Below, piece by piece: positions 9,477 to 21,838 of a stretch of DNA of 64,000 nt; within the stretch, counting starts at the first letter, position 1, and each line of letters starts with the position of its first letter. Made by a program: the position numbers and the translations under genes. Below the pieces are notes generated by a model. The model worked only from the letters and a program-made list of their open reading frames with translations, was not told the DNA's origin and did no database searches. Source of the stretch: Mucilaginibacter arboris (GTDB lineage Bacteria; Bacteroidota; Bacteroidia; Sphingobacteriales; Sphingobacteriaceae); the NCBI RefSeq assembly GCF_009754915.1, contig NZ_WPIK01000008.1, positions 124,001 through 188,000 of the forward strand, read 5' to 3'.

Positions 9477-9512
9477 AAAAGAAGCATTCCTCTAAATTTA
9501 AATGCTTCTTTT
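9477..9512. terminator. Inverted pair of core repeats acting as bidirectional terminator
   Basis: A + oriented core (9477-9487) and a - oriented core (9502-9512) face each other across 14 bases. With flanking bases the arms CGATAAAAGAAGCAT and ATGCTTCTTTTACCG can pair, and a T-run follows. The pair lies exactly between two convergent genes. This is the same use that Haemophilus and Neisseria make of paired uptake sequences. Confidence 0.8.
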
Positions 9513-11103: not shown

Positions 11104-11748
11104 TTAACCTTTGCCGCCACCTAAAGCTTTCAGGTCTTCAAAAGTAATTCTGTCGAAATCTGCCGGAATTGCAAAAGTTCCGGGTTTAACTTTTTCATCT
11201 GAGATAGATTTTAAGGTCACTTCAACAGGTTGTCCTCTTTGTATAGTGGTAAATTTTATAGGATAACCGCCCATATTGGTAAAAAATTTGGTTAAGTTAT
11301 TAGATGGGGCAGTTATATCATTGGTAATCCAGGCATCAAACGTCGAACCGCTTTTGCTATCTTTAACTTTTACCTTTTTACACTTGTAACCAGAAATAGT
11401 TTGTGTTTCTGTAGTTGGAGTGGAAGTGAAAGAAGGTTCCTGGTCTTTCATTTGTTCCAAGTCTGCAGGTGTTGCTACAGCAGCTTTTTTCATGGAAGCC
11501 ACAGGTACATCTATCAATACTACCATATAATTTCCTTTATCGTTAGATAATATACTAATGGTTGCAGGGCCTTGCTGCATTTTAGTAGCAGTAGAATCGT
11601 TTTTAAAATAAGTTTTGGACTCTGTTTGCTGGCCATTAGCGCTAACAGAATAAGTTATTACACCTTCAGTATAATTTTTTTGTGCATGGGCTGCAAAACA
11701 GATGGTGGTAAGCGCCAAACCCAAAGTTGCTTTTTTAATATTAATCAT
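11104..11748 (-). CDS. Secreted DUF4412-like protein
   Basis: The 214-residue protein has a signal peptide (GLALTTICFAAHA). The mature part begins with EGVITYSV and has a regular beta pattern, including TISGYKCKKVKVKD and FDAWITNDI, typical of the DUF4412/GLPGLI-like Bacteroidota periplasmic proteins of unknown function. It ends in a Gly-rich tail. It is followed downstream on the minus strand by the shared terminator at 11025-11067. It may be cotranscribed with nothing; comEC lies 74 bases upstream in the same orientation. Confidence 0.72.
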   Translation of the reverse strand: MINIKKATLGLALTTICFAAHAQKNYTEGVITYSVSANGQQTESKTYFKNDSTATKMQQGPATISILSNDKGNYMVVLIDVPVASMKKAAVATPADLEQMKDQEPSFTSTPTTETQTISGYKCKKVKVKDSKSGSTFDAWITNDITAPSNNLTKFFTNMGGYPIKFTTIQRGQPVEVTLKSISDEKVKPGTFAIPADFDRITFEDLKALGGGKG

Positions 11749-11822: not shown

Positions 11823-13943
11823 TTAATTGTTAAAGTTAGACTGAAGTTGGAAGGATTTGTTACGTTTTAAAATTTTTATTTTTCGTCCGTCCGATGCTGC
11901 ATCTTCTGTTAAATTTTTAATCTGGTAATCAGAGTTGCTGCCATCGATAATTAACAAGTCAAAAATAATATTTCCGGAAATCTGCGCTAAGTTTAAACGA
12001 GGGTTTCCGGTTATATACACTTCATCTACTTTTATTTTTTGTGGCAGCGTTTTGTTTTCAAATTTTTTATCCGCCACAAAAATTAAACGGTTTCCAAATT
12101 GTATTAAATTATTTTGCCTGCTAAAAACAGCATTCCTAAAGTTTTGCCCAGTTTGTAAAAGTTTAACCTGAACGCACTTACAACTATCTAAATAAGGTTG
12201 TACTGAGTATTGAAAGGTCTTGTCGGCCGGTTTTAAATCTGTTATCACCACAGCTTCATTGCCTTTTTTAAATATTAAGCCCGAATTTTTACGGAGGTTT
12301 AAAAAAACCATTTCATCCTGATTTGCGGCCTGATAGCGCTTATATGAAATACCTGCTAAAAAAAGTATGGTAAAAACAGCACCGGCTTTTAACCAAAGAG
12401 AATTGCGGTGGACCAGACAGGCGAAACCGGAGCAAATAATGGCATACAAAAGCAAATATTGGGGAACGGTGATCCAAAGTTTGTTCCAGTTGCCAAAAGG
12501 GATATTTTCTATCCGTGTTAAACCTTCGTTCATTAAAATAATGGTTTTTTCGAGTAAAAAGGCTATTAGTTTTGAAATATTAAAAACATCAGGAATTAAC
12601 AGAAATGCAATTCCAAAATACATAATCAGCATAGAAGGCAGCACAATAAAAAGGTTACTGATGAGGAAATAAACCGGAAACTGATGGAAATAAAAAATGC
12701 TAACCGGAAAAGTAATGAGTTGTGCCGCTAAAGAAACAGAGATCAACGACCAAAGCTTTTGAGCAATAAAATGTTTAAAATGAAACCAGTCTTCTATTAT
12801 CGGCTGTAAAATAATCAAACCAAAAACAGCTAAATAAGAAAGCTGAAAACCAACATCAGTAAGATAGAAAGGATTGTAAAGCAGCAGCATAAAAGCCGAA
12901 ACCAGCAAAATATTAAGCATGCTGATATGGCGGTTATAGGTTTTCCCGGCGATAACAAACGTAATCATTACGGCAGCACGGCAAACGGCAGGCGAAAAAC
13001 CGGTGATTAAAGCATATACCCAAATCAGCAGAACAGAGATCAGCGCTTTTAGTAAAACAGTGCTTCTTTTACGGTTTAAAAAACTTAGCAGCATGTTTAG
13101 AATGATGTAAACCAAAGCAACGTGCATGCCCGAAACGGAAAGCACGTGCATGGTCCCGGTTTTAGCATAAGCTTGCAAAACGTCCTGACTTAAATCTGCA
13201 CGATAACCCAAAATTAAAGTGGAAGCAACCGCAATAGCATCCGGATTGTGCAGGTATTTCTTCAGTTTTAAAACTAGGTTTTTTCTGATTTTAAGTGCGT
13301 AAGCAATTATTGGATTGTCACGATTAGTAGTTAGTAATTGGTACTCGTTTGGGTTGATAAAAGTCTGAAAGTAAATGTTTTGATGTTGAAGCCACAACTT
13401 GTAATTAAATTCTGCGGGATTAAAAGGTGCATCAACAGGTTTAAAATTACTGTTGATAAGCAGTTCATCACCATAATTTAAATTGACAGGTTGATTTGGA
13501 TCAATCTTTAAAGCAATTAGTAAACTTCCGCAAGCCGGAATAATTTTGCCATTAAAAGAAGTATGCGTAACAGAAGAATTAAAGTGGACAAGGTTTCCGG
13601 TTTGTTTAGGTTCCTGGATAATGCGGATGAGCAACGCATTAGATTTTTGTTTTGAAAAATGGTTTTGCTGGTTAATTTCTTTATTTCGCTCTGCAAATAA
13701 AATTCCTGCTAACAGCAATAAAATATGGACAAGAATTCCGCCAATCCAGGGTTTGCGGTAAATTTTTAATCGGGCATAACCAAAATTTAAAGTAGCAAAA
13801 AGCAAAGCAATTGCATAAATGCTGATGGTTAAGCAAAAAAACCAACTATCGAACGGAAAAATCACGCCTAAAAAAATACCCGATAAAAGAGGCATCAGCA
13901 GTTGTAAAAATGGGTTTTCGGGCATAAAAAAAGCGTTTTTCAT
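11823..13943 (-). CDS. comEC: ComEC/Rec2 inner-membrane DNA uptake channel
   Basis: ComEC carries single-stranded DNA across the inner membrane during natural transformation. The 706-residue protein has two or three N-terminal membrane segments, the DUF4131/OB-like region, and then the competence domain. Visible hallmarks are MHVLSVSGMHVALVYIILNM near residue 267 and ALITGFSPAVCRAAVM near 315, followed by about seven membrane helices. The C-terminal MBL-like part is short and lacks an HxHxDH motif, as in many Bacteroidota, so any nuclease step would need another protein. It starts three bases after the HhH/beta-barrel gene ends, in one operon. A core repeat at 13554-13564 is read HTSFNG. Confidence 0.93.
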   Translation of the reverse strand: MKNAFFMPENPFLQLLMPLLSGIFLGVIFPFDSWFFCLTISIYAIALLFATLNFGYARLKIYRKPWIGGILVHILLLLAGILFAERNKEINQQNHFSKQKSNALLIRIIQEPKQTGNLVHFNSSVTHTSFNGKIIPACGSLLIALKIDPNQPVNLNYGDELLINSNFKPVDAPFNPAEFNYKLWLQHQNIYFQTFINPNEYQLLTTNRDNPIIAYALKIRKNLVLKLKKYLHNPDAIAVASTLILGYRADLSQDVLQAYAKTGTMHVLSVSGMHVALVYIILNMLLSFLNRKRSTVLLKALISVLLIWVYALITGFSPAVCRAAVMITFVIAGKTYNRHISMLNILLVSAFMLLLYNPFYLTDVGFQLSYLAVFGLIILQPIIEDWFHFKHFIAQKLWSLISVSLAAQLITFPVSIFYFHQFPVYFLISNLFIVLPSMLIMYFGIAFLLIPDVFNISKLIAFLLEKTIILMNEGLTRIENIPFGNWNKLWITVPQYLLLYAIICSGFACLVHRNSLWLKAGAVFTILFLAGISYKRYQAANQDEMVFLNLRKNSGLIFKKGNEAVVITDLKPADKTFQYSVQPYLDSCKCVQVKLLQTGQNFRNAVFSRQNNLIQFGNRLIFVADKKFENKTLPQKIKVDEVYITGNPRLNLAQISGNIIFDLLIIDGSNSDYQIKNLTEDAASDGRKIKILKRNKSFQLQSNFNN

Positions 13944-13946
13944 CTT

Positions 13947-15992
13947 TTAAAACCGATAGCGTACTTGTATCCTGGCCTCAGATTTCTTGTTGCCTTCAAT
14001 TACATCCAAACCAGAACCAACTGTTTTTTCTCCCCGGTACAAATAAGCGCTGTACCTAAACCAAACATCGATTGCTTTTTTGAAATTATACTGCGCATTA
14101 AAGTAGGTGCGAAAGCCGGTATGCTGCAAGGGCAAAACCGTGTAACTGTACAAAACATCGTTCTCAAAAGAGTAAACCCGGGAATCGTAACTGGCTGTAT
14201 GAAACCAGGCCAAACGGCAATTGCCCGAAACCCTGCTGCTTTTAGGTTTATAAATTACATCCTGATAAGCCATAAAACCATATTCTGCTGCTGGTGCACC
14301 TTTTTGGTATTTTACAAGTTCTGCACGGTTTCTAAACGTGATATTTCTGGTAAAAGGATACGAAATATCCAGGTGCCAATCCTGGTAATTAACTTCATCC
14401 AAAGCTTTAATTTTTGCATTGTCGTTGTTTTGTTGCTTCTGTTTTAAGCGGTAATTGAGATAAGCAGACAGGCGGTTAGTTGGCGAGAAAGTTAATCTTC
14501 CTAAAAATTCATGTCCATAACTATTGGGTTGGCCCACCTGATATTTTAACCAGGGAAAACGGAAGAAATCAGCATAACCGGAAAAATTCCAGTAGTGTAA
14601 AAACTTCAGGTTTAAACCACTGTAAACACCTTTTTCATTTACCCCTTCTGTTGCTTCGGAAATGGCCTGATTGTAGAGCGAATGATAATTACGGCTGTAA
14701 TTCCGGTAGAGCAAGACCACCGAAACCGTTGAAGACAAGGAGGTTAATAAACCATTTACAGTGGCAGCGCCGCCTCCCAAACCTTTAGCTGTTTCTCCGA
14801 AGAAATATAAATTATGGTAGCTGTAATCATAATAGAACGAAAGGTTATCTAATTCCTTTCCGGCGAACTGGAACTCGTTATAAGTGTTTCGTTTACGCTG
14901 CACCGGAAATTGAAAATTGGTATTGTAAGCTGTTGCACCTGCTTTAAAATTTCGGTTAGTATAGTTGAGGTTTAAGCCATAAGTTAATTGTTCTGCTGCA
15001 TTTTTGTTAACTAATTCTGTGGGTGTGCGATGATAACCGGTTGTTCCGATAGAAGAAATATATTCAGGGTTTGCCGTGCTTTGAACGGTTGCATCAATTG
15101 GCTGATCTGAAACAAAAGGTGTAAATTCTACAGCTTTCCATTTAAACGTTGCTGCAACACCGCGGAAATAACTGACTTCATTGGTAGAAGAATAAGGCGT
15201 TAAACCGCGGCTAACTTTAGGCACCAAAGTAGCATCTGCATTTTTGCCAAATGCAAAACCGGTATATAAACCTAAACCCTGGCCAAACTGCAAAGAATAA
15301 TCACCAATAACCAGGCGGTTTACAAAACCAAAATTTTTAAAAGAAAGGCTGGCCGAATAAAAATCAAAACCCATACTGTTTTTACCGGCAAAAAATGGTT
15401 CTCCCGCATCTTTTTCCATATTTAAAGCAAGTTGGATGCGGTTTTGAAAATTAAATTTATAACGTCCTAAAAGTTTCTGTGCATTTCCGGTATAATGCGA
15501 AAGCTTAGAATCTTTTGGAATGAGAAAACCTTTTTGGGCTTGTAATACTTGTCCATATCGAAAGATGAAATCTTGTTTGCCGTAACGAAAAACGTTTGTA
15601 AGGTTAACAGCATTAAAATCAAAATCCGGACTGATTGTTACAAAAGGCAATAGTTTTTGAATGGTTTGCAGGTCGAAAAGATTGATACTTTGAAGTTCGA
15701 GCAGGTTAATTAGTTTCCCGTTAGTATGGATATGTTCCTGCAAAGCCGTGATTTGCAGGACAGACAGAAACAAAAGGTCTTGCAGTTGTGTGGTAGTTGC
15801 TTTGTTAAGGTTAAGCGGGTGCAGGCGATAATTATTAAGCTGGCCAATCAATTCAGAATAGTCGTAATCGTCCGGCAGGTTTTCGGCAGCAGCTTCAATA
15901 ATGGTTTCTATTTCGCGCTCATAAGAACTTTGGCCAAAAGCAGTTTTTGCAATACTTAGAAAGAAAAAAAGCAGTAAAAATTTGTACTGCAT
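13947..15992 (-). CDS. Secreted helix-hairpin-helix / putative outer-membrane beta-barrel protein
   Basis: I chose ATG 15992 (MQYKFLLLFFF); a TTG lies one codon upstream. The 681-residue protein has a signal peptide ending near AFGQ. Then comes a ComEA-like helix-hairpin-helix region, LNLNKATTTQLQDLLFLSVLQ and LINLLELQSINLFDLQTIQKL, at roughly residues 58-115. The rest consists of alternating aromatic strands (LQLALNMEKDAGEPFF, FRYSAYLYRG) ending in RIQVRYRF with a terminal Phe, the outer-membrane barrel signature. HhH motifs bind DNA non-specifically. With comEC three bases downstream, a role in DNA capture at the outer membrane is a reasonable inference but untested. Confidence 0.75.
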   Translation of the reverse strand: MQYKFLLLFFFLSIAKTAFGQSSYEREIETIIEAAAENLPDDYDYSELIGQLNNYRLHPLNLNKATTTQLQDLLFLSVLQITALQEHIHTNGKLINLLELQSINLFDLQTIQKLLPFVTISPDFDFNAVNLTNVFRYGKQDFIFRYGQVLQAQKGFLIPKDSKLSHYTGNAQKLLGRYKFNFQNRIQLALNMEKDAGEPFFAGKNSMGFDFYSASLSFKNFGFVNRLVIGDYSLQFGQGLGLYTGFAFGKNADATLVPKVSRGLTPYSSTNEVSYFRGVAATFKWKAVEFTPFVSDQPIDATVQSTANPEYISSIGTTGYHRTPTELVNKNAAEQLTYGLNLNYTNRNFKAGATAYNTNFQFPVQRKRNTYNEFQFAGKELDNLSFYYDYSYHNLYFFGETAKGLGGGAATVNGLLTSLSSTVSVVLLYRNYSRNYHSLYNQAISEATEGVNEKGVYSGLNLKFLHYWNFSGYADFFRFPWLKYQVGQPNSYGHEFLGRLTFSPTNRLSAYLNYRLKQKQQNNDNAKIKALDEVNYQDWHLDISYPFTRNITFRNRAELVKYQKGAPAAEYGFMAYQDVIYKPKSSRVSGNCRLAWFHTASYDSRVYSFENDVLYSYTVLPLQHTGFRTYFNAQYNFKKAIDVWFRYSAYLYRGEKTVGSGLDVIEGNKKSEARIQVRYRF

Positions 15993-16092
15993 CAAGTTAA
16001 AATAGAATCATTTATACTGCTTTTATTTTAACTCAATAATATTAAAATTAATTAATAATTAAATTAAAACAGAAATAAATATTTATACCGAT

Positions 16093-16103
16093 AAAAACAG
16101 CAT
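16093..16103 (+). repeat. Dispersed core repeat (AC-C form) overlapping a start codon
   Basis: Exact AAAAACAGCAT preceded by ATTTATACCGAT. Its last two bases are the first two of the ATG at 16102. Confidence 0.95.
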
Positions 16104-17145
16104 GATGCCCGATTCCGTTTTTGAAGTGATATTGGTTGGAGATTCCGGTAACATTTCCCGTTACAAGCCCGATCCTGTTCTGAGTTTGTTAACTAAACAC
16201 CTGGCTACGCCCAATCCTTCGGCAGTCATTTTTTTGGGTGATAATGTTTATCCGAACGGTTTACCAGAAAAAGGCGACCGGTTAAGGGCAGACGCAGAAT
16301 TAGTGCTGCAAAAACACCATGAAGCAGTAAAAAATTATTCAGGAAAAGTGATTTTTATCTCTGGCAACCACGATTGGAACAAAGGCAAAGACGATGGTTT
16401 TGATTACGTTATCCGCCAGGAAAAATACATCGAAAAATTATTTGGCGGAGAAAACGTTTACCTGCCATCCAGAGGTTGCCCGGGGCCGAAAGAAGTTTCT
16501 GTAAATGATGAGCTGACTATAGTGGCCATCAATACCCAATGGTGGATCCAGCGTGGTTTCCGGCCAATAGGCGCAAAAGATGGTTGCAGCGCCGGTTCTG
16601 AAGCGGAGTTTTTTACCTTATTAGAAGAAATGATCAACAGAAATAAGAACAAAAAAGTGCTGGTGGTTGGCCATTATCCTGTTTACAGTTATTCGTTGCA
16701 CGGCGGAAAATTTAAGTTTAAGCACCATTTGTTTCCGCTTACCATTTACCGTAAAAAGGCTTTTATGCCTTTGCCTGTTGTTGGTTCTTTGCTTCCTTTA
16801 TACCGCAAATATATTGGCGCACCGGAGGACCTTTCGCATTTGCGTTTCCGCACATTGAAAAAGAAACTGAAAACTATTTTTGCAAATCATCCAAACCTGA
16901 TCTATGCTGCCGGGCACGAGCATAATTTGCAGCATATTTATAAAAACCAGGTTAATTATATTATAAGTGGCGCAGCTTCCAAATCAACTTACGTCCGAAA
17001 AGGAAAATATGGCAAGTTTGCTTTAGCAGCAAAAGGTTTTTTTAAGCTGAAGTTTACATCAAACCAAAAAACAGTTGCCGAATCGTGGATTGTAGATGAA
17101 TTTGATGAAAACGGAAAAATGGTTTATCAAGCCGAATTAGACTAA
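16102..17145 (+). CDS. Calcineurin-like metallophosphoesterase
   Basis: The 347-residue protein shows the dimetal phosphoesterase motifs in order: LVGDSG (residues 11-16), LGDNVYPNG near 48, GNHDW near 92, GHYPVYSY near 193, and GHEHNLQ near 273. It lacks a signal peptide, so it is probably cytoplasmic or membrane-peripheral. It resembles the purple-acid-phosphatase-like branch common in Bacteroidota; the substrate is unknown. The start could be 16102 or the adjacent ATG at 16105. Its stop overlaps the 3' end of the convergent lipid-kinase-like gene by four bases. Confidence 0.88.
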   Translation: MMPDSVFEVILVGDSGNISRYKPDPVLSLLTKHLATPNPSAVIFLGDNVYPNGLPEKGDRLRADAELVLQKHHEAVKNYSGKVIFISGNHDWNKGKDDGFDYVIRQEKYIEKLFGGENVYLPSRGCPGPKEVSVNDELTIVAINTQWWIQRGFRPIGAKDGCSAGSEAEFFTLLEEMINRNKNKKVLVVGHYPVYSYSLHGGKFKFKHHLFPLTIYRKKAFMPLPVVGSLLPLYRKYIGAPEDLSHLRFRTLKKKLKTIFANHPNLIYAAGHEHNLQHIYKNQVNYIISGAASKSTYVRKGKYGKFALAAKGFFKLKFTSNQKTVAESWIVDEFDENGKMVYQAELD

Positions 17146-18038
17146 GAAACAGCCGGTAAAAGAAGCTTTAAAGCAAGCGGTGTAATGCTAATGTCGATAT
17201 GTTTTACTTGGCCAATTACTTCGCCGTCAACCTGCAATACAACACCTCTTTTGGTGGTGATGTGTGCTTTTTTACAACTAATCACTTCAAAATACTCACT
17301 GGTTTGCAAATTACCGCGGAACATCTTCCAGGTAAGCGAAAATATTTTCATCCACGGAAAGAGTTTCACAATACATAATTCAAACCGACCGTCATCAATT
17401 TTACCGGTTGGGTTGATAACTGCGCCAGTGCCATATTTAGAAGCATTGGCAAAAGTGATGGAAACGGCCCTGCGCCTGATAGATTTACCATCGTAACGGA
17501 TTTGGAAACTTTTGCTTCTGATCAAGAATATCTCGCGCCACAAATAACGGGCATAAGTGGAAAGTCCGCGCCTCGGGTCTTCCTCAAAACGTTTTACAAT
17601 CCGCGCATTTAAACCAACATCGGCTAAGTGGACACAAGTAGAATTATTAATGGTCAGCAGGTCAACCGGCTTAATTTTATAATTTTCCAGTACATCGTAA
17701 GCTGCTGTAATTTGGTTTGGGATGGCTAATTCCCGTGCCATTCCGTTTGCCGATCCGCAAGGTAAAATCATCACAGGCAATTGGTAATCGGGTGCTATTT
17801 TTGCAACAATATTTAAGGTGCCATCGCCACCGGCAGCAATCAATAAATCAGGATGGTAATCTTTAATTTCTTTTCTGATGTTTCCTTCACAATCCTGGTT
17901 TTCCATTTCGTAAACCCGGAACTCAAACTCATACTGTTTGCTTTTTTGCTCCAATAACTCCGCGAACTGTTCGTGTGTTTTGCCACCAGCACGTGCATTG
18001 TAAATTACCAAAACAGATGAACCTGCAGGCAGCCTCAT
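17142..18038 (-). CDS. Diacylglycerol kinase catalytic-domain protein (YegS/DgkB-like)
   Basis: This 298-residue protein phosphorylates a lipid alcohol, most likely diacylglycerol or a sphingoid base, recycling it into phospholipid. The N-terminal VIYNARAGGKT and the catalytic LIAAGGDGTLNIVAKI (near residues 65-80) and PCGSANGMAREL define the DAGK_cat family. The C-terminal half carries DDGRFELCIVK and VDGE blocks. The start overlaps the MerR gene by four bases, so the two are translationally coupled. A one-mismatch core repeat lies at its 3' end (about 17158-17168). Confidence 0.9.
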   Translation of the reverse strand: MRLPAGSSVLVIYNARAGGKTHEQFAELLEQKSKQYEFEFRVYEMENQDCEGNIRKEIKDYHPDLLIAAGGDGTLNIVAKIAPDYQLPVMILPCGSANGMARELAIPNQITAAYDVLENYKIKPVDLLTINNSTCVHLADVGLNARIVKRFEEDPRRGLSTYARYLWREIFLIRSKSFQIRYDGKSIRRRAVSITFANASKYGTGAVINPTGKIDDGRFELCIVKLFPWMKIFSLTWKMFRGNLQTSEYFEVISCKKAHITTKRGVVLQVDGEVIGQVKHIDISITPLALKLLLPAVS

Positions 18039-18370
18039 AATTGCTCTTTTACTTCCAGTAAAAATTTTTTCAGGTTTTCCAGCGCACTAATTACCTGCTG
18101 ACTTTCTTTCGCTTCGCTGCCGTTCTGCTTTAAATAATCGCGCGCGCCCTGTAACGTAAAGCCGCGTTCGTTAATTAAGTTGAAGATGATTTTCAGGTTA
18201 TCTACATCTTCCGGTGTAAAAAGCCGGTTTCCTTTTTTGTTTTTTTTAGGTTGAAGGATGTCAAATTCCTTCTCATAAAACCGGATCATCGATTGGTTTA
18301 CATTAAACATAGCCGAAACCTCGCCCATGGTATAATACATTTTATTGATGTCTCTTTCTTTGTAAGGCAT
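18035..18370 (-). CDS. MerR family transcriptional regulator
   Basis: The 111-residue protein has an N-terminal MerR winged helix: YYTMGEVSAMFNVNQSMIRFYEKEFDILQP (read in overlapping short blocks), then RLFTPEDVDNLKIIFNLINERGFTLQGAR. There is no C-terminal effector domain or metal-binding cysteine set, so it is a minimal, ligand-free-looking member. It is coupled to the diacylglycerol-kinase-like gene by a four-base overlap. Such MerR proteins occur in Sphingobacteriales next to this kinase or near alaS, but the target is unknown. Confidence 0.88.
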   Translation of the reverse strand: MPYKERDINKMYYTMGEVSAMFNVNQSMIRFYEKEFDILQPKKNKKGNRLFTPEDVDNLKIIFNLINERGFTLQGARDYLKQNGSEAKESQQVISALENLKKFLLEVKEQL

Positions 18371-18818: not shown

Positions 18819-18826
18819 TATCTTTG
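18819..18826 (+). promoter_or_regulatory. -7 promoter element of alaS
   Basis: TATCTTTG matches TAnnTTTG exactly. No convincing -33 TTG lies at 19-21 bases upstream. An in-frame TTG inside this element is therefore not the alaS start; ATG 18863 is. Confidence 0.6.
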
Positions 18827-18846
18827 CCACATAATTTTTATACGAT

Positions 18847-18857
18847 AAAAACAGCAT
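18847..18857 (+). repeat. Dispersed core repeat (AC-C form) in the alaS leader
   Basis: Exact AAAAACAGCAT preceded by AATTTTTATACGAT. It ends five bases before the alaS ATG. Confidence 0.95.
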
Positions 18858-18862
18858 TCCAA

Positions 18863-21838
18863 ATGTTAACCGCTTCCCAGATACGCCAGCAATTTTTAGA
18901 TTTTTTTGCATCGAAACAACATCAGATCGTTCCATCAGCGCCAATTGTGGTAAAGAACGACCCGACACTGATGTTCACCAATGCCGGAATGAACCAGTTT
19001 AAAAGCATTTTTTTAGGTGAAGAAACAGCAAAATTTCCAAGAGTTGCCGATACTCAGCGTTGTCTGCGTGTTTCCGGCAAGCACAACGATCTGGAGGAAG
19101 TTGGCATCGATACCTATCACCACACGATGTTCGAGATGTTAGGCAACTGGAGCTTCGGGGATTATTTTAAAAAAGAAGCGATAGCATGGAGCTGGGAATT
19201 GCTGACGGAAGTTTATAAAATAGACAAAGACCGGCTGTACGTAACTTATTTTGAAGGCGACGAAAAGGAAGGACTGGAAAAAGACCAGGAAGCCTACGAT
19301 TTGTGGAAGCAGTTTTTGCCAGAAGATCACATCCTCCCCGGGAATAAAAAAGACAACTTTTGGGAAATGGGCGAAACTGGCCCTTGCGGACCATGTTCCG
19401 AAATTCATTATGATAACAGGAGCGAGGAAGAAAGAGGAGCGAGGAGCGGAGCGGAACTGGTTAATGCTGATGATCCGCAGGTAATTGAAATCTGGAACAA
19501 TGTTTTTATGCAGTTTAACCGGTTAAAAGATGGTTCGCTGCAGCCGCTGCCCAACAAACATGTAGATACCGGAATGGGTTTCGAGCGTTTGGTGCGTGTT
19601 TTACAAGGTAAAAGTTCTAATTACGATACGGATGTTTTTCAGCCGCTGATTCAGTTTATTGCGGAGAAAAGCGGAAAAGCTTATGTTGGAAGCGCAGGTT
19701 CAAGTAGCGAAGGTTGGAACGAAGCTGTTGCGATGCGTGTAATGGCAGATCATATTCGTGCGATTAGTTTTGCAATTGCTGATGGACAATTGCCTTCCAA
19801 TAACAAAGCTGGTTATGTTATCCGCCGGATTTTAAGAAGGGCGGTTCGTTACACTTATCAATACCTCAACTTTAAAGAACCTTTTTTAAATACTTTAGTA
19901 CTTCTTTTAGCAGAACAGTTTAAAGATGTGTTTCCTAATTTGTATGAGCAGAAGGATTTTGTGCAGAAGGTTGTTTTAGAGGAGGAGGTTTCGTTTTTAA
20001 GAACTTTGGAGAATGGAATGCAAATCTTTGACCATACAATTATTGATAGGTGGGCAGAAGCTAATAATCAGATATTTGGAGTAAATAAAATTATACAAGA
20101 TGCCATACAGACAAATCAAGGTATACAAAAGGTAATAGAAGCAAGTAATGCATTTCAAGCACTTGGAGTAATACAAGATTCGATGCAAGCAAGTAGGAAA
20201 ATGCAAGAGATGTTTCAGGCAGGAAGAAAAATGCAAGATGCGTTACAAGCAAATACAAAAATTCAAAACGCAATAGATGCAGCTCAAAAATTAACGTCTG
20301 TATTTCAAAACAATTCTTTTTTAAAATTTCAAAACAGTCTAAGTCCATTTTTCGAAGCAGCAAGCAGATTAGAATCCAATCCGTTAAAAATTCCTGGCGA
20401 TGTTGTATTTAAGCTACAAGATACTTATGGTTTTCCAAAAGATTTAACGGAATTGATGGCTCGTGAAACAGGTTCAACTATAGATACTACTGGTTATGAA
20501 AATGCCCTCCAAGAACAAAAAAACCGTTCCCGTGCAGCAACAGCCATCGATACCGGCGATTGGATCAGCCTAAAAGAAGATGATACCGTAGAATTTACCG
20601 GTTACACCGAAACAGAAACGATTGCGCATATCATCAAATATCGGAAAGTTAAAGCCAAAGGAAAAGAACAATTTCAATTGGTTTTAGATAAAACACCTTT
20701 TTATGCGGAAAGCGGCGGGCAGGTAGGAGATACAGGCGACCTGATTTTTCCGGATGGAGAAATTATCCCGGTTACGGATACCAAAAAAGAAAACGGATTA
20801 ATCGTACATTTTGTAGATAAAATGCCGGAAGATCCTTCTGATATTGTTACGGCTTATGTTGACCCGGAAAGAAGGTTAAGCATCGAAAATAACCACTCGG
20901 CAACGCATTTGCTCCATGCTGCTTTGAAAGAAGTTTTGGGCAGCCATGTCAATCAAAAAGGTTCGCTGGTTAGTCCGGATTATTTACGTTTTGATTTTTC
21001 GCATTTTGCCAAAGTAAGCGATGAGGAAATTTCGAGCATTGAAGCTGTGGTCAATCGAAAGATTAGGGAAAATGTAGGTGTCATAATTCAAACCATGTCT
21101 TTTGCAGAAGCCTCACAAACTGGCGCAATGGCTTTGTTTGGAGAAAAATACGGGGATGTTGTCCGTGTGGTAACAATGGATGAAAAATTTTCTATTGAGC
21201 TTTGTGGTGGGACCCATGTGAAAGCAACCGGACAAATTGGTTTCTTCAAAATAGTTGCAGAAAGTGCAGTTGCAGCAGGTGTTCGCCGAATTGAAGCCAT
21301 AACTAGCGTCAAATCCGAAGAATTTATCCATCAGCAAAATGAAGAAATTAAGGCGTTAAAAGAACTGCTGAAAAACCCGAAAGATTTAACCAAAAGCCTG
21401 GAACAATTGTTGGAAGAAAATGCTTCGCTCAAAAAAGAAGCAGAAAAAGCGGTTCTGGATAAGGTTTCTGCCATGAAAAAAGAACTGGCTGCCAGGCATG
21501 CTTCTTTTAACGGTATAAATTTTATCTCGGAAGAAGTTGATCTGCCAAATGCAGAAGCTGTAAAGAGTTTAGCTTATCAAACCAAAGATATTTTGACAAA
21601 CCTGGTTTTAGTTTTAGGTGCCACTATCGAAGGAAAACCAAATTTAACGGTAATGATTTCCGAAAACTTAGTCAAAGAAAAAGGTTTGGATGCCCGTACA
21701 TTTATCAAAGAACTGGCTAAAGAAATTCAGGGCGGCGGCGGCGGCCAGCCTTTTTACGCTACAGCAGGCGGTAAAAATGCTGCCGGATTAAAAACGGCTA
21801 TCGAAAAAGCAAAGCTGTTTATTCACACCCAGGTATAA
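18863..21838 (+). CDS. alaS: Alanyl-tRNA synthetase with a large in-frame insertion
   Basis: AlaRS charges tRNA-Ala and edits mischarged Ser or Gly. Starting at ATG 18863 the protein is 991 residues, over 100 longer than the usual 870-880. The class II core is intact (MFTNAGMNQFKSIFLG, MLGNWSFGDYF, CGPCSEIHYD). So are the editing and zinc residues (NNHSATHLLHAAL, LCGGTHVKATG) and the C-terminal GGGGGQPFYATAGG. The extra length lies at about residues 388-508, between LRTLENGMQIF and PGDVVFKLQDTYGFPKDL. It is a Gln/Asn/Ala-rich run of roughly ten-residue repeats (MQASRKMQEM, FQAGRKMQDA, LQANTKIQNA). A core repeat at 21498-21508 is read HASFNG. Confidence 0.95.
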   Translation: MLTASQIRQQFLDFFASKQHQIVPSAPIVVKNDPTLMFTNAGMNQFKSIFLGEETAKFPRVADTQRCLRVSGKHNDLEEVGIDTYHHTMFEMLGNWSFGDYFKKEAIAWSWELLTEVYKIDKDRLYVTYFEGDEKEGLEKDQEAYDLWKQFLPEDHILPGNKKDNFWEMGETGPCGPCSEIHYDNRSEEERGARSGAELVNADDPQVIEIWNNVFMQFNRLKDGSLQPLPNKHVDTGMGFERLVRVLQGKSSNYDTDVFQPLIQFIAEKSGKAYVGSAGSSSEGWNEAVAMRVMADHIRAISFAIADGQLPSNNKAGYVIRRILRRAVRYTYQYLNFKEPFLNTLVLLLAEQFKDVFPNLYEQKDFVQKVVLEEEVSFLRTLENGMQIFDHTIIDRWAEANNQIFGVNKIIQDAIQTNQGIQKVIEASNAFQALGVIQDSMQASRKMQEMFQAGRKMQDALQANTKIQNAIDAAQKLTSVFQNNSFLKFQNSLSPFFEAASRLESNPLKIPGDVVFKLQDTYGFPKDLTELMARETGSTIDTTGYENALQEQKNRSRAATAIDTGDWISLKEDDTVEFTGYTETETIAHIIKYRKVKAKGKEQFQLVLDKTPFYAESGGQVGDTGDLIFPDGEIIPVTDTKKENGLIVHFVDKMPEDPSDIVTAYVDPERRLSIENNHSATHLLHAALKEVLGSHVNQKGSLVSPDYLRFDFSHFAKVSDEEISSIEAVVNRKIRENVGVIIQTMSFAEASQTGAMALFGEKYGDVVRVVTMDEKFSIELCGGTHVKATGQIGFFKIVAESAVAAGVRRIEAITSVKSEEFIHQQNEEIKALKELLKNPKDLTKSLEQLLEENASLKKEAEKAVLDKVSAMKKELAARHASFNGINFISEEVDLPNAEAVKSLAYQTKDILTNLVLVLGATIEGKPNLTVMISENLVKEKGLDARTFIKELAKEIQGGGGGQPFYATAGGKNAAGLKTAIEKAKLFIHTQV
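20030..20385 (+). repeat. Degenerate ten-codon repeats inside alaS
   Basis: About seven imperfect 30-base units encode the pattern [FML]QA..KMQ[DE][AM]. The stretch is more A/T-rich and uses more ATA, AAT and CAA codons than the flanking alaS sequence, suggesting it is foreign to the gene. It keeps the reading frame and contains no stop. Confidence 0.75.

Follow-up and report, generated by a model that had tools for sequence, protein, structure and literature searches.

A predicted 24-strand outer-membrane barrel encoded beside comEC in Mucilaginibacter arboris is a candidate DNA channel without sequence specificity

It is an open question by what route DNA passes the outer membrane of bacteria equipped with ComEC but with neither a type IV pilus nor a secretin. 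In Riemerella anatipestifer a transformation screen revealed machinery unlike any known, in which RA0C_RS02645 is essential and an outer-membrane barrel reported only from Flavobacteriaceae, RA0C_RS04915, is required (PMC8459023). Riemerella columbina has been found to favour its own DNA, and the k-mers given there are all of low complexity (PMC7965970); apart from that paper, a phrase-based literature search found none on uptake sequences in Bacteroidota. In the type IX secretion system, the wide barrel SprA binds PorV (PMC8754138). Here we analyse a window of 64,000 nucleotides from Mucilaginibacter arboris (contig NZ_WPIK01000008.1, 124,001 to 188,000), in which comEC directly follows a gene for a secreted protein that joins a helix-hairpin-helix (HhH) domain to a beta-barrel, hereafter the HhH-barrel. 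This protein may well form a wide channel in the outer membrane, hitherto undescribed, that would probably admit DNA upstream of ComEC without sequence specificity.

The HhH-barrel gene lies on the minus strand at 13947–15992 (frame 13947–15995, ATG at 15992). Its 681-residue product begins with a signal-peptide-like N-terminus, MQYKFLLLFFFLSIAKTAFGQ, whose hydrophobic run up to TAFGQ suggests a signal peptide at residues 1-21 (15930–15992, minus strand), and ends in RYRF; no NCBIfam model matched it. Three bases (13944–13946) separate the gene from comEC (11823–13943, minus strand, 706 residues, assigned from its reading frame and domain matches). The original prediction of a secreted protein whose gene ends three bases ahead of comEC is therefore borne out by the reading frames and the N-terminus. 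Pfam recognises in ComEC a DUF4131 domain (PF13567, 8.8e-24; residues 39-200, 13344–13829, minus strand) and a Competence channel domain (PF03772, 1.4e-54; residues 243-510, 12414–13217, minus strand), and the score against TIGR00361 is 111 bits, under the 190 cut-off. The C-terminal part (11826–12413, minus strand) gave no Pfam match to a Lactamase_B nuclease domain, which is missing from many known ComEC proteins (PMC6299819). Across our phylum sample of 296 genomes, ComEC frames are mostly ~590-735 residues long in the class of Mucilaginibacter and ~800-900 residues in other classes. Therefore, the class seems to be without the C-terminal nuclease domain. In approximately 73 of 80 named loci barrel and comEC are same-strand neighbours, at a barrel identity of only 37-47%. 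The pairing is far from chance, and a conserved linkage to comEC is upheld.

AlphaFold2, run on an alignment of 63 relatives, returned a model with a pLDDT of 86.5 and a pTM of 0.84, laid out as an N-terminal periplasmic HhH-like helical domain followed by a 24-strand beta-barrel (residues 139-681; 13950–15578, minus strand; also from secondary structure and Foldseek). Strands with 8 or more residues number exactly 24 in the barrel model. Its outer loops are long (214 residues in total) and its periplasmic turns short (37), which in the model is the layout of an outer-membrane barrel whose two termini face the periplasm. The earlier claim of barrel-like strands ending in Phe is thus matched by a confident structure prediction. 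The best PDB matches of the barrel in Foldseek were MtrB and the FimD usher, both wide barrels (TM ~0.38); these point to a similar width class, with no sign of homology in the model. All 63 sequences have a positively charged barrel part (mean net charge +19, a figure that stands without a control set of other barrels), and the outer loops are conserved across the family to the same degree as the strands. At the HhH region the model has helices. A single sequence matched Pfam HHH_3 weakly (E=0.019, 15.5 bits vs a cut-off of 27, residues 59-119), and the profile of the 63 relatives had ComEA (8dss) as its top match in the PDB (E=0.00097, profile positions 56-116). We found no published description of the protein in a phrase-based literature search. 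Going by the model, the protein plausibly belongs to an old, undescribed family in which a wide 24-strand barrel follows a periplasmic plug or docking domain derived from HhH.

The genome as a whole was searched for the conventional route. A type IV pilin with the N-methyl motif gave no match at E<=1 in the whole genome, with positive controls detected. For the outer-membrane secretin PilQ there was nothing above the cut-off in the genome, the one match scoring 13.5 bits against 27.5. Therefore, another outer-membrane conduit would be needed if DNA enters the cell. The genome encodes a second HhH protein (L120 6597-7517; G000:C34 ~226.6-227.5 kb), of 306 residues, with three HhH domains, an N-terminal hydrophobic stretch, one canonical hairpin (RGIGPAFA) and a net charge of ~+12 outside that stretch. 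On these sequence features it appears to be the better ComEA analogue of this genome.

In the 296 phylum genomes we obtained 241 matches for the barrel (a minority of them weak and HhH-only), 288 for ComEC and 228 for the type IX component PorD. The only clade in this sample without ComEC is f37 (seven genomes: G312, G352, G359, G390, G402, G413 and G421), which has PorD and no strong barrel match; it is a single clade in favour of a tie between barrel and ComEC. Chlorobiaceae (f17, recognised from the chlorosome protein PF02043 in 8/8 genomes tested) and f11 have the barrel and no PorD. In Chlorobaculum tepidum, genetic work conventionally relies on natural transformation (PMC3842273).

Several observations weigh against a channel for DNA. 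The HhH domain (residues 58-121; 15630–15821, minus strand; from Pfam, profile and alignment) is degenerate. The hairpins of ComEA read PGIGP and TGIGEKT, the matching columns of the HhH-barrel family FLSPLQI and xGFDxET, and the M. arboris protein has FLSVLQI and NLFDLQT in place of the GIG hairpins; GxG is absent from both hairpins in all 63 sequences. The net charge over residues 24-125 is ~-10 and is positive in none of the 63, and that of the HhH part alone is -1 (positive in 2/63). The ComEA-like region of the original prediction thus survives as a fold but not in its hairpins, and DNA binding through this domain is supported by neither hairpins nor charge. Given a ComEA-like fold that has lost its phosphate-binding hairpins, a plug or docking domain fits better than a DNA receptor. 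Moreover, the pair was supposed to exist in other Bacteroidota, which holds for the loci of Sphingobacteriaceae but not beyond them: in other families comEC adjoined the barrel at 0 of 25 loci (1.5 kb flanks inspected). Pairing with comEC is thus a trait of the Sphingobacteriaceae. In the other families the barrel adjoins a gene of the PorV/PorQ family, and in several classes the type IX secretion gene porD lies divergently beside the barrel and this PorV-like gene. In clade g14 an intact alaS-MerR-comEC-DUF4412 order has lost the barrel together with the PorV-like gene. Many genomes have ComEC and no barrel (f3, f4 and g14, all three with PorD), and ComEC by itself is no proof of competence. 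Gene order (lpxB-surE-comEC), among other signs, suggests that f3 and f4 are Weeksellaceae and Flavobacteriaceae. On that assignment, the barrel is lacking in the group from which RA0C_RS04915 is reported, a pattern of replacement; next to comEC in f3, f4 and g14 we recognised no Riemerella-type barrel, the neighbours being judged by eye and without Riemerella sequences.

Set against these points, the adjacency to comEC, the 24-strand model, the missing pilin and secretin, the ComEA-fold N-terminus and the basic barrel lend a DNA channel about as much support as would leave the question evenly poised. The lack of both ComEC and a strong barrel match in f37, the barrel of the transformable Chlorobiaceae and the apparent replacement in f3 and f4 are part of that support. 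We infer the following route. DNA would cross the outer membrane through the 24-strand barrel, with neither type IV pilus nor secretin, and the HhH-derived domain would shut the barrel from the periplasm as a plug or dock. A PorV-like protein may aid the barrel in most relatives. The three-HhH protein would act as the periplasmic receptor and hand the DNA over to ComEC, which would be made from the same operon as the barrel. The barrel would handle DNA in general. The original interpretation is therefore partly supported, as a candidate DNA conduit and not as a repeat-specific DNA-binding protein.

A protein-export or surface-attachment translocon is a different reading of the same gene order. 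A PorV/PorQ-family gene (NF033709, under its cut-off) stands directly ahead of the barrel in most relatives, PorD is its divergent neighbour in other classes, and SprA provides the precedent of a wide barrel bound to PorV; the barrel and its PorV-like partner could thus follow type IX-like logic, with comEC a chance neighbour. However, the barrel is found without PorD in Chlorobiaceae and f11, and PorD without the barrel in f3, f4 and g14. Therefore, the barrel is distributed independently of the type IX marker, and its candidacy as a type IX component is weakened. The PorV-like gene is also absent from all three members of the genus that bear the repeat described below (L001-L003), as from some other genomes of the family; this genus has lost it and retained the barrel. 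As linkage to comEC has moreover been maintained over many genera, we consider the type IX-like reading doubtful.

Alternatively, the barrel could be a general transporter of nutrients or polysaccharides, its place beside comEC reflecting slow turnover of gene order. The ancestral block of Sphingobacteriaceae runs alaS, MerR, (DAGK, metallophosphatase), PorV-like gene, barrel, comEC and DUF4412. In the window, domain matches and locus comparison place the DUF4412 gene, the conserved downstream neighbour, at 11104–11748 (minus strand), the divergent metallophosphatase gene at 16102–17145 (plus strand) and the MerR-type regulator gene at 18035–18370 (minus strand). These neighbours belong to an old block with no common pathway, and in other families the barrel likewise stands beside housekeeping genes, both of which suit a transporter. 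The pair with comEC nevertheless persists in the 80 named loci even where other neighbours have changed, and a ComEA-fold domain fused to the barrel would be unexpected in a nutrient transporter, which makes this explanation unlikely. The alaS frame of the block (18824-21838, 1004 residues) has an apparent repetitive helical insertion of more than 100 residues ahead of its VFKLQDTYGFP motif, and the alaS homologues of g14 (942-974 residues) look long too.

The genome also carries a dispersed repeat, to which the pair had originally been linked. Pattern searches of the 4.16-Mb genome found 1045 + 1042 exact copies of ATRCTKYTTTTAYC (2,087) vs 0 + 2 of the reversed pattern; features of placement come from a 464-kb sample. 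In that sample the consensus is ATRCTKYTTTTAYCRSCNAAAAAT, extending to ~25 bp with an A/T tract behind the core, and at positions 6-7 of the core the variants TC and GT switch as a unit. Coding sequence holds 44% of the copies vs 82% of the sequence, close pairs are inverted in 21 of 25 cases, and spacing is more even than random. Judged by copy number, presence on both strands and placement, the repeat appears uptake-signal-like. Copies in the window lie, for example, at 693, 2422, 7791 and 9487-9502. One, ATACTTCTTTTA, is inside comEC (13553–13564, minus strand), a position shared by all three genus members. Another is inside the barrel gene (15373–15395, plus strand) and was not found there in the two other members. 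Upstream of the barrel gene are a weak copy, ATACTGCTTTTA (16014–16025, plus strand), and a further copy, ATGCTGTTTTTA (16092–16103, minus strand).

Of the 151 genomes in the family sample, only the three genus members are rich in the repeat, with 1616-2467 copies against 0-14 in the remaining 148. The barrel protein is matched in 129 of the 151, strongly in 118, and ~115 of these strong homologues are in repeat-free genomes. The protein is thus common in genomes without the repeat, which on the sequence side is the outcome that the original prediction named as refuting it. Residues specific to the genus are almost lacking: Y243, T244, Y275 and N490 in the outer loops, Q51 before the HhH domain and five strand residues. 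The barrel is therefore not what distinguishes repeat-bearing genomes, and the supposed link of the pair to the repeat falls away. That the HhH-barrel is a sequence-specific receptor of the repeat is highly improbable: pair and repeat do occur together in all three genus members, and the outer loops are of sufficient length to bind DNA, but distribution and the scarcity of genus-specific residues lead us to reject the barrel as the specificity factor, and its outer loops are as conserved as its strands, unlike those of a diverging receptor. With the barrel general and the repeat confined to one genus, the reader of the repeat must be sought elsewhere.

A k-mer scan of the flanks of the pair in relatives, in which several top k-mers were not inspected singly, found no dispersed repeat clearly alike. 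A k-mer signal in Pedobacter was rejected as a dialect of the repeat, being a local 28-bp tandem palindrome array (TTATCGGCTAATTAGCCGATA) at one place. In several Pedobacter (L048, L050, L058, L063, L069, L077 and L082, at ~19.2-19.6 kb) the array keeps its position, downstream of the barrel gene by ~7 kb, and from its sequence it looks like a multi-operator.

The reading we prefer, a wide channel for DNA upstream of ComEC, offers a concrete and testable candidate conduit: a barrel family that is spread across the phylum and tied to comEC in one family. Present in most of the phylum, the barrel may be a general DNA door and not the lock for the repeat of one genus. More tentatively, we can picture it as the way for DNA through the outer membrane in Bacteroidota and Chlorobiota without pili: a 24-strand channel with an HhH-derived plug as its gate and a PorV-like lid. 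An unrelated barrel would have taken its place in Flavobacteriaceae, and in Mucilaginibacter it would work with a separate reader of a 25-bp uptake signal. Should the role in DNA passage fail, the HhH-barrel is still an uncharacterised wide outer-membrane translocon.

Several described systems can be compared with this protein. PilQ and the minor pilin ComP of Neisseria would serve the same tasks, outer-membrane passage and recognition of a signal, yet the searched Mucilaginibacter genome is without a secretin above the cut-off or an N-methyl pilin. The FimD/PapC ushers and MtrB resemble the HhH-barrel in having 24-26 strands and are its best fold matches in the PDB, but with a TM of ~0.38 and ~10% identity, and the HhH-barrel is without the accessory domains of ushers. 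SprA-PorV is likewise wide and recalls the PorV-family gene that adjoins the barrel in most relatives; the HhH-barrel differs in having 24 and not 36 strands, in its 681 residues and in a distribution independent of PorD. With ComEA it shares a paired HhH fold, aligned with 8dss over 61 residues, and it departs from ComEA in the fusion to a 24-strand barrel, the replaced GIG hairpins and the acidic N-terminal domain. Riemerella anatipestifer has in common with this system ComEC, a secreted barrel and an HhH protein. Its barrel RA0C_RS04915 is unlike the HhH-barrel, with a carboxypeptidase-regulatory domain, no HhH and reports only from Flavobacteriaceae, and its DUF5689 surface partner RS04920 has no match in the Mucilaginibacter genome. 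RA0C_RS02645, likened here by architecture and not by sequence, matches the 306-residue three-HhH protein of Mucilaginibacter.

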